Shown: in pieces, positions 15,011 to 16,568 of the stretch
Layout: each line of letters begins with the position of its first letter
Numbering within the stretch: the stretch's first letter is position 1
Assembly: GCA_012522535.1 (NCBI GenBank)
Contig: JAAYKF010000080.1
Coordinates: 1-32,944, forward strand
Reading direction: 5' to 3'
Length of the DNA stretch: 32,944 nt
From: Bacteroidales bacterium
GTDB taxonomy: Bacteria > Bacteroidota > Bacteroidia > Bacteroidales > WCHB1-69
The notes under the pieces: generated by a model
Database searches by the model: none
What the model saw: the letters and a program-made list of their open reading frames with translations, nothing else
What the model was told of the DNA's origin: nothing
Translations under genes and position numbers: made by a program

Positions 15011-15042
15011 TTTGCAATTATGAATTATTATATGTAATTTTG
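15011..15042 (+). promoter_or_regulatory. Promoter of rpsU
   Basis: TTTG at 15011-15014 is a full -33 element and TAATTTTG at 15035-15042 a full -7 element, 20 bases apart. The rpsU ATG is 55 bases downstream. This is one of the best promoter matches in the window. Confidence 0.8.
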
Positions 15043-15085
15043 CACCCTCTAAAAATAAAATAATATTATTAATTAAAGAAAGAAA

Positions 15086-15090
15086 GAGGT
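15086..15090 (+). promoter_or_regulatory. Shine-Dalgarno-like GAGGT ahead of rpsU
   Basis: GAGGT can pair with the ACCUC of the 16S rRNA 3' end and sits 7 bases before the rpsU ATG. Most starts in this window have no such element. In Flavobacterium, bS21 helps hide the anti-SD, and a retained SD on rpsU lets bS21-poor ribosomes raise bS21 synthesis; this site fits that scheme by inference. Confidence 0.55.
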
Positions 15091-15097
15091 ATTTTTT

Positions 15098-15289
15098 ATG
15101 ATTATCGTTCCCGTAAAAGAAGGCGAAAACATTGACAGAGCTTTAAAGAGACTTAAAAGAAAATTTGAAAGAACAGGCGTAGTTAGAGAATTGCGCGACC
15201 GTCAAAAGTTTACAAAACCTTCAGTAAAAAAGAGGGAGCAGCGTTTGAAAGCTATCTATATTGAGAAGACTTATTCAAACAACGATTAA
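15098..15289 (+). CDS. rpsU: 30S ribosomal protein S21 (bS21)
   Basis: A 63-residue basic protein: MIIVPVKEGENIDRALKRLK at 1-20, KFERTGVVRELRDRQKFTKP at 22-41, then KKREQRLKA. These are the standard bS21 landmarks at the normal length. bS21 binds the 30S platform beside the 16S 3' end. In Bacteroidota this protein, with bS18 and bS6, has been shown to sequester the anti-Shine-Dalgarno. The gene has a strong promoter, an SD-like GAGGT 7 bases before the ATG, and a hairpin just after it that separates it from the recombinase gene. Confidence 0.97.
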   Translation: MIIVPVKEGENIDRALKRLKRKFERTGVVRELRDRQKFTKPSVKKREQRLKAIYIEKTYSNND

Positions 15290-15307
15290 TCTTTTTTAGA
15301 GTTTTAC

Positions 15308-15361
15308 TTGCAAACCGTAAGTTGTTTTTGTATATTTACAAACCAATTTACGGTTTTTTTT
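15308..15361 (+). terminator. rpsU terminator with an embedded promoter-like element for xerC
   Basis: AAACCGTAA (15312-15320) pairs with TTACGGTTT (15348-15356), with a small inner TTTGTA/TACAAA stem in the loop, followed by T residues up to 15361. The T run ends exactly at the next gene's ATG. Inside the loop, TATATTTA (15331-15338) is one base off a -7 box, and TTG at 15308-15310 lies 20 bases upstream. Transcription from it would start near 15345 and omit the left arm. The terminator is well supported; the promoter is tentative. Confidence 0.7.
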
Positions 15362-16249
15362 ATGCATATAAACGAATATTCAAACTATTTAAGCTCCGAA
15401 AGACGATACTCGCCACACACGGTAAAGTCATACCTGTCTGATTTATCTCAATTTACAGAATATATGCTAGAGCAATATGAGATAAATAGTTTTAGCGAAA
15501 TAGAATCGGTGCATATAAGGTCGTGGATTTCTTATCTTATTTCTCAGAAACAAAGCAATACCAGTGTTAACAGAAAAATTTCCACTTTAAGGAGCTATTA
15601 TAGATTTCTTTTGAAGCAGAGAAAACTTGAAAAGAATCCCATGGATTTAATTTCGTCGCCCAAGGCAAAAAAACGATTACCAGTTTATGTTGAAGAGAGC
15701 AAAATTGAAGATTTGTTGCACGAAGACAACTTTGATGACGGTTTTGAGGGAGTACGTGATAGGTTAATTATAGAACTGTTTTATAGGACTGGAATTCGAC
15801 TATCGGAGTTGGAAAATCTAAAAGATGAAAACATTGATTTGGGTTTGATGCAGATAAAAGTGCTTGGAAAAAGGAATAAAGAGCGACTTATACCCATCAG
15901 TAATAACATTAAAAAATTAGTTATACAATATTATAATATAAGAGACGAAGTTTTTCCAGATTTAAAACAAAACAAATTTTCGTTCGTTACATATAAAGGA
16001 GATAAAATTTACTCAAAAATGATATACAGAATTGTTCGTAGGGAGATTGGCAGAGTTAGCACTGCAAACAAAAGGAGTCCACATGTTTTGCGACACAGTT
16101 TTGCCACTCATATGCTCAACAATGGTGCCGATATAAATGCCATTAAGGAACTTTTGGGTCATTCAAACTTATCTGCCACCGAAATTTACACACACAATAC
16201 TATAAGTAAGTTAAAAAACATATATAAACAAGCCCATCCACGGGCATAA
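15362..16249 (+). CDS. xerC: XerC-type tyrosine recombinase
   Basis: A 295-residue site-specific recombinase of the XerC/XerD type, which resolves chromosome dimers at dif. The SAM-like core-binding domain (1-90) contains SSERRYSPHTVKSYLSDLSQ (11-30). The catalytic domain has R146 in YRTGIRLSEL, K170 in LGKRNKE, H241 and R244 in HVLRHSFATHML, H267 in LLGHSNL and nucleophile Y276 in ATEIYTH, so all active-site residues are present. I chose ATG 15362 because it gives the normal family N-terminus; an earlier in-frame TTG at 15308 lies inside the rpsU terminator. XerC versus XerD cannot be settled from sequence alone. The gene is not next to integration features, so a housekeeping role is more likely than a mobile-element integrase. 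hpf follows after 13 bases. Confidence 0.9.
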   Translation: MHINEYSNYLSSERRYSPHTVKSYLSDLSQFTEYMLEQYEINSFSEIESVHIRSWISYLISQKQSNTSVNRKISTLRSYYRFLLKQRKLEKNPMDLISSPKAKKRLPVYVEESKIEDLLHEDNFDDGFEGVRDRLIIELFYRTGIRLSELENLKDENIDLGLMQIKVLGKRNKERLIPISNNIKKLVIQYYNIRDEVFPDLKQNKFSFVTYKGDKIYSKMIYRIVRREIGRVSTANKRSPHVLRHSFATHMLNNGADINAIKELLGHSNLSATEIYTHNTISKLKNIYKQAHPRA

Positions 16250-16250
16250 A

Positions 16251-16258
16251 AAGGAGGT
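16251..16258 (+). promoter_or_regulatory. Consensus Shine-Dalgarno AAGGAGGT ahead of hpf
   Basis: AAGGAGGT is a full complement of the canonical 16S anti-SD. AGGAGG ends 5 bases before the hpf ATG, the ideal distance. It is the only complete SD I found at any start in the window, in a phylum where such sites are rare. Confidence 0.85.
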
Positions 16259-16262
16259 CAAT

Positions 16263-16568
16263 ATGAATGTGAATAACAAAATTACATCTGTCCATTTCAA
16301 AACTGATATCAAGTTGGAGGAGTTTATAAATGAGAAACTCAGTAAGCTAAACAAGAAATACGACAACATTATTGGTTATGAAACTGTATTGAAATTGGAG
16401 AACACCGACAAGCCTGAGAATAAAACTGTAGATATTCGAGTAATTATTCGTGGCAATGATCTTTTTGCGTCAAAAACCGAAAAGAGCTTTGAAGAAGCCA
16501 CAGATAAGGCTTTAGACGCTTTAAAAAAGCAATTAACCAAGCATAAAGATAAAATAAAGCAGAAATAA
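16263..16568 (+). CDS. hpf: Ribosome hibernation-promoting factor, short form (HPF/RaiA family)
   Basis: A 101-residue protein of the HPF/YfiA family, which binds the decoding centre of idle 30S subunits and promotes 100S dimers or protects resting ribosomes. Visible marks are the N-terminal strand ITSVHFKTDIKLEEFINEKL (8-27), LNKKYDNII, VDIRVIIRGNDLFASK (55-70) and the closing helix SFEEATDKALDALKKQLTKHK (74-94). The C-terminus is basic. It lacks the extra dimerisation domain of long HPF. It lies 13 bases after the recombinase stop, probably on the same transcript, and has a consensus Shine-Dalgarno sequence, which its neighbours lack. It is followed by a promoter/terminator overlap that opens the tRNA operon. 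Confidence 0.92.
   Translation: MNVNNKITSVHFKTDIKLEEFINEKLSKLNKKYDNIIGYETVLKLENTDKPENKTVDIRVIIRGNDLFASKTEKSFEEATDKALDALKKQLTKHKDKIKQK

Follow-up and report, generated by a model that had tools for sequence, protein, structure and literature searches.

A conserved, start-anchored Shine-Dalgarno sequence at the hibernation factor gene hpf of Bacteroidales and its possible reading by ribosomes with an exposed 16S tail

We found that hpf, which encodes a ribosome hibernation factor, carries a canonical Shine-Dalgarno (SD) sequence that is anchored to the start codon and conserved over most of the Bacteroidales-type loci examined, in a bacterial group whose ribosomes mostly ignore the classic SD signal. 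The best explanation overall, to which we assign a probability of about 0.5, is that hpf is read by small subunits whose 16S rRNA tail is exposed. The conservation of the site suggests that HPF synthesis may hinge on the accessibility of the matching 16S tail. The features of the window (the whole stretch of 32,944 nt that was analyzed) are collected in Table 1.

Table 1. Features around rpsU and hpf in the window
Feature	Coordinates	Strand	Description	Remarks
hpf	16263..16568	+	Short HPF/YfiA-family hibernation factor, 101 aa	PF02482, TIGR00741
hpf SD	16251..16258	+	AAGGAGGT, canonical core, 4 nt before ATG	Conserved in relatives
rpsU	15098..15289	+	bS21, 63 aa, Tyr54 present	PF01165 and TIGR00030 above cut-off
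rpsU promoter-like -7 element	15035..15043	+	TAATTTTGC, which we take to be a Bacteroidota -7 element (TAnnTTTG type)	
rpsU extended SD	15081..15093	+	AGAAAGAGGTATT, AGAAAG plus AGGTATT, one bulge	Pairs with AAUACCU(C)CUUUCU
xerC	15362..16249	+	XerC/D-type tyrosine recombinase	PF00589, PF02899; TIGR02224 E 1.7e-94, yet below the equivalog cut-off (searched without the first residue)
Terminator-like hairpin and T run	15312..15361	+	Between rpsU and xerC	Fold -19.9 kcal/mol, z -5.9

The hpf product scored 67.1 bits against PF02482 (cut-off 23.7) and 48.9 bits against TIGR00741 (cut-off 40.9) and was the sole PF02482 match of its genome. It resembles known HPF/YfiA hibernation factors as a short protein over the family cut-offs, and nothing in it is unusual. 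A second PF02482 match, possibly an HPF paralogue, occurred in 23 of 119 genomes of the class. As the sequence-only reading had claimed, the consensus SD ends four bases ahead of the ATG, with a gap of 5 between AGGAGG and ATG; the AGGAGG core, the spacing (about 5-9) and the occurrence above chance make it a canonical SD. We scored 28 starts of the window against the same-family 16S tail AAUACCUCCUUUCU; three of these were uncertain TTG starts, and xerC (ATG 15362) and an ORF given as 12134 were entered slightly off the true start base. Strong pairing was found only at rpsU (-13.2 kcal/mol) and at hpf (-13.3 kcal/mol, of the core kind, computed with ViennaRNA and not with the program of the published scan discussed below). 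The 26 other starts reached at best -4.9 kcal/mol (gpsA and rplJ), in agreement with the earlier statement that no other gene here has a comparable site. The two genes are also close neighbors with a recombinase gene between them, as had been noted, in the order rpsU, Xer-type recombinase, hpf, four tRNA genes and tuf. An Rfam scan of the window returned five tRNAs and no RNA leader at the gathering threshold. Structural masking of the hpf SD was considered and rejected, as the fold of positions 16200-16300 was no better than that of shuffled sequences (z -0.9). Bare AGGAGG occurred five times in the window, compared with 6.8 expected; in the absence of enrichment, the case for the hpf SD rests on its position and conservation.

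Pairing energies were computed with ViennaRNA duplexfold using one 14-nt tail for all genomes, and own tails were used only for genomes with a read 16S tail. A start, taken as the ATG nearest the model start, was counted as SD-bearing at -8.5 kcal/mol, a threshold picked after the bimodal spread of energies had been seen; at the border, one hpf (-8.2, G194) was counted negative and one rpsU (-8.5, G212) positive. 'Bacteroidales-type' is a label of this analysis. Eighty named loci were found through bS21 and comprise by title 64 Bacteroidales, 2 Marinilabiliales, 11 Bacteroidota only, 2 'Sphingobacteriia' and 1 'Ruminococcus'; 55 of these hold hpf, and the 25 without hpf in the stretch examined stand outside the hpf counts. 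The record titled Ruminococcus flavefaciens (L073) is a metagenome-assembled genome whose rpsU is 82% identical to the query, and it is probably misnamed or a mixed bin.

An hpf SD was present in 89 of 106 Bacteroidales-type loci with a distinct xerC, and thus absent from 17, and in 78 of 94 when the set was restricted to loci of certain order. Counted by start, 68 of 83 carried the SD compared with 0 of 83 mock windows, and 66 of 81 unique upstream sequences did so after removal of duplicates (totals of 83, 101, 47 and 74 in this study include a few duplicate loci, whereas those of 81, 98 and 106 include none). As controls in the same loci, an SD was found at 0 of 47 tuf starts and 1 of 74 xerC starts. 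The actual 16S tail paired with hpf better in mean energy than 300 of 300 shuffled tails. Genomes picked for a read 16S tail showed the hpf SD in 22 of 25 cases, and among 31 genomes (own and relatives) hpf was matched in 28 and missing from three. At the family level, 15 of 18 loci, the own included, reached -8.5 kcal/mol at hpf. The sequence-only reading had regarded absence of the hpf SD from close relatives as evidence against itself; the site is kept in these 15 of 18. A chance purine run or relic would suit the AGGAGG count of the window, but the conservation, the mock controls and the 15 of 18 same-family loci leave it a negligible probability. In the class outside the order (118 other genomes, 114 with hpf), the hpf SD was found in 31 of 114 (3 of them same-order) compared with 3 of 114 mock windows; because some Flavobacteriales are reported to carry an alternative anti-SD (PMC8710568) and a single standard tail was applied, members of that order may be wrongly scored as SD-less in this count.

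The position of the site follows the hpf start. The GGAG-to-ATG spacing was 5-10 nt with a standard deviation of 1.3 (67 of 68 SD loci hold GGAG), and the distance from the xerC stop to GGAG in the same loci had a standard deviation of 19 and extended up to 95. Four loci with xerC-hpf gaps of 76-106 nt (L093, L099, L100 and L112) keep the SD by the ATG, as do the five in which xerC-hpf is turned against rpsU (these four and L098; gaps of 33-106 nt). These observations bear on the possibility that hpf translation is coupled to that of xerC by termination and reinitiation, as would be suggested by the 61 of 68 SD loci with at most 30 nt between the xerC stop and the hpf start, counting overlaps. 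However, SD-less loci share such short gaps (1-29 nt), and at gaps of 76-106 nt the SD keeps its distance to the ATG rather than to the stop. Since the SD position tracks the hpf ATG, we rejected reinitiation at the xerC stop as the main cause and consider the coupling very improbable.

The chief rival to reading by tail-exposed subunits is that the SD lets hpf outproduce xerC from one transcript through ordinary initiation and without any bS21 signal; inner operon genes such as rplE, rplF and rpsR would then be alike. In its favor, hpf followed xerC in 83 of 83 loci, and the motif TAnnTTTGC was lacking within 130 nt at 80 of 81 hpf upstream regions (1/81 hpf starts with the motif, compared with 71/99 rpsU starts, in the Bacteroidales-type set). 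Moreover, for nine of the 11 SD genes of the genome with long flanks, hpf included, a same-strand ORF of at least 80 codons ends no more than about 30 nt from the start. Against it, within the spc operon the majority of inner genes lack an SD, and a strong SD gave no reporter gain in wild-type Flavobacterium johnsoniae in the published experiments (PMC9976891). We judge this rival to be somewhat unlikely.

As regards the transcript layout, the strong hairpin between rpsU and xerC indicates that these genes probably belong to separate transcripts. It was not reported by a stricter terminator scan, which allows loops of 3-8 only; in a lax search with no shuffle control, a perfect stem of at least 6 with a T run was found in 54 of 98 regions. 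The inner stem-loop of the hairpin holds TATATTTAC, which is close to the Bacteroidota -7 motif, so that a promoter of xerC-hpf may sit within the rpsU terminator.

A genome-wide search for AGGAGGN(3-10)ATG gave 62 matches, compared with 48 for the reversed control. Judged by ORF length, upstream in-frame stop and Pfam, 20 of the 62 were accepted as true gene starts (for the second half of the matches, the judgment used 80 nt of upstream sequence and excluded frames that stayed open there; L392 was excluded as probably internal). About 1.2 would be expected by chance, an estimate that takes the 48 control matches, a total of 2,100 genes by assumption, and 82,134 ATGs extrapolated from a sample of 193 kb. 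About 1% of the genes of the own genome carry an SD. The accepted genes include hpf, rplE and rplF; genes encoding NuoE/HoxE-like, NuoF-like, RnfE, NqrB-like, CydB-like and ODP-family proteins and a 2-oxoacid oxidoreductase beta subunit; and genes for an ATPase-domain protein, Hsp20, a BatA/VWA protein, a HemN-like radical SAM protein, MgtE, a DUF5320 protein, a GDSL lipase and a family-28 glycosyltransferase (read as MurG). Two more (L388 and L418) have no Pfam match and signal-peptide-like starts. An electron-transfer or redox look is shared by seven of the 20 (L015, L016, L027, L396, L398, L410 and L417).

Across the spc operon of 28 genomes with an rplE match, an SD was found at rplE in 27 of 27 and at rplF in 22 of 27, and the seven other genes showed it in 0-3 of 19-28. 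SDs at rplE, rplF and rpsR had already been reported in certain Bacteroidia (PMC9976891); hpf resembles these in pairing strength and in core pairing, but its product is not a structural ribosomal protein. The bS18 gene rpsR was rejected as a constant SD partner, with 13 of 28 scored starts and none in the own genome; within the family, an SD is found more regularly at hpf (15/18) than at rpsR (8/19).

Control of translation through the pocket formed by bS21, bS18 and bS6 requires an intact 16S tail and a suitable bS21. CCTCC was kept in 32 of 32 order-level 16S tails (31 of 50 genomes with a 16S match, plus the same-family G033), and a 16S search of the own genome, a 2.45 Mb draft of 194 contigs, gave no match; the expected CCUCC at the 16S 3' end is thus seen in relatives. 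The tails of the order were mostly AAUACCUCC or AACACCUCC, with one AAAACCUCC and one ACCACCUCC. The outermost AA and CU of the tail were paired in at most 6 of 66 SD-bearing hpf leaders. Tyr54 of bS21, which the published Y54A mutant links to contact with the tail (PMC9976891), was present in 100 of 101 Bacteroidales-type loci, including that of the window, and one locus has Phe.

The rpsU site is of another kind. Its SD had been described as partial, and GAGGT does lie at 15086-15090, seven bases before the ATG; the site is nevertheless longer, with nearly the whole 16S tail paired. AGAAAG plus AGGTATT is the reverse complement of the tail less one G, so that one 16S C is bulged, and the duplexfold energy was -13.2 to -13.8, varying with the stretch given. 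Among unique rpsU leaders, 57 of 98 paired at -8.5 kcal/mol or better, 32 of 98 held the exact AGAAAGAGGT and none of 98 held GGAGG. The tail bases were each paired in 36-57 of the 57 strong leaders, except the ninth (C), paired in only 20. All 300 shuffled tails were worse in mean than the real tail. Strong pairing thus holds for a majority of the Bacteroidales-type leaders; over the class an rpsU SD was found in only 24 of 115 genomes, compared with 0 of 115 mock windows. Strong rpsU sites were almost confined to tail type AAUACCUCC: they were present in 9 of 13 genomes with AAUACC tails, and genomes with AACACC tails had an rpsU SD in 1 of 13 and an hpf SD in 10 of 11. The possibility that rpsU and the tail covary base by base was considered, and the evidence was not decisive (9/13 vs 1/13 with a strong site), and the tail type probably goes with the presence of the rpsU site by descent.

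In F. johnsoniae, ribosomes lacking bS21 have been reported to prefer rpsU mRNA, giving bS21 autoregulation (McNutt et al. 2023, PMC9976891). According to that publication, no Bacteroidales passed its rpsU criteria in a scan by register. As its Methods are worded, such a scan would probably skip a bulge, which may be how the rpsU site was missed; the main text nowhere uses the word 'bulge', and the bulged site seems to lie outside the published criterion of extended pairing (below -13 kcal/mol, 9-13 bp).

These findings can be set beside the F. johnsoniae system as published. The likeness is an SD before the start in an SD-poor Bacteroidia genome, with the CCUCC tail and bS21 Tyr54 conserved. 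The SD there is extended, however, whereas the hpf of the window has a core SD and its target is a hibernation factor, and the rpsU site of the window is extended with a bulge. When AGGAGGU was placed on a tuf reporter in F. johnsoniae, GFP rose more than 2-fold in the bS21 mutant deltaC and by 70% both in Y54A and in depletion without IPTG, and a weak AGGA gave virtually no gain when bS21 was mutated or depleted (PMC9976891). By analogy with these reporters, bS21-poor ribosomes could plausibly translate hpf. The authors hold an extended SD to be necessary for stimulation by bS21-depleted ribosomes, and the shorter hpf SD accordingly counts against such reading. The exposed-tail explanation is also weakened by the 17 of 106 loci without an hpf SD and by its presence in only 31 of 114 class genomes outside the order. 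The term 'hpf' does not appear in the main text of PMC9976891, and among the titles and abstract openings returned by searches of an open-access collection we found no report of an hpf SD.

Our proposal is that hpf would be translated with SD-anti-SD help by those 30S subunits in which the bS21/bS18/bS6 pocket does not hold the 16S tail. It would join a small 'exposed-tail' set, comprising rplE, rplF and often rpsR, together with rpsU via its extended bulged site. When tail-exposed subunits accumulate, for example in bS21 shortage, HPF synthesis would rise relative to that of SD-less genes. Shortage of bS21 is the best documented route in the published work, and other ways of freeing the tail might serve, including shortage of bS18 or bS6, intermediates of subunit assembly, or a pocket that is looser in Bacteroidales. 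Our confidence differs among the parts of this proposal. That translation of hpf depends on the SD is likely; that translation by tail-exposed subunits is the reason for the SD has roughly even odds; and that bS21 is the physiological trigger is a tentative suggestion on the doubtful side. The step most reliant on inference is that bS21 occupancy is the variable that actually changes in the cell.

The sequence-only reading had gone further and proposed a paired switch, in which bS21-poor ribosomes would jointly induce bS21 and HPF via matching SDs and so tie subunit composition to ribosome storage. Its foundation stood in part: the hpf SD is anchored and conserved, both sites exist in the window and pair about equally well, and in 77 of 114 class genomes the genes share a strand and are no more than 4 kb apart (in 30 others they fall on separate draft contigs). 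Before tree correction, the two SDs were associated in Bacteroidales-type loci, both in those with both starts scored (n = 74; 41/18/5/10, P = 0.016) and in a larger set (51/31/5/12). However, they were independent over the class (7/24/17/64, odds ratio 1.1, P = 1), and the AACACC-tail genomes described above keep the hpf SD and mostly lack that of rpsU. A strong rpsU site is lacking in 13 of the 22 hpf-SD genomes whose tails were read. In a quickly built tree of the 106 loci, the hpf SD changed 12 times and the rpsU SD 6 times, and in supported independent pairs differing in the hpf SD the rpsU SD was the same in 5.3 of 6 on average, a comparison that detected no coupling but has little power. 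The sites also differ in kind, as GGAGG is absent from all rpsU leaders, a hairpin separates the genes, and the genome has about 20 SD genes, of which hpf is one. The class-wide independence and the hairpin indicate that, although rpsU and hpf are neighbors, the paired switch is not a general rule; a matched bS21-HPF pair is thus partly supported but does not hold as a rule, and we regard joint induction as decidedly unlikely. In one reduced 0.5 Mb genome of the class (G064; L336 and L386), the rpsU and hpf matches are separated by only 57 nt, which leaves no room for xerC between them, and scoring with the standard tail gave no SD at either start.

Preference of composition-altered ribosomes for one mRNA has been shown in this class for a single gene, rpsU of F. 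johnsoniae, in the published work (PMC9976891). The bulged rpsU site, if functional, would take bS21 autoregulation into an order excluded by the published criteria. In the broadest form of the exposed-tail reading, which we consider unlikely as a whole, the exposed 16S tail would itself be the cellular signal, and subunits without bS21, or whose pocket stands open, would translate bS21, often bS18, uL5, uL6 and HPF, with incomplete ribosomes thereby turning on repair as well as storage. Should hpf respond as well, the storage of ribosomes would come under the control of their composition.
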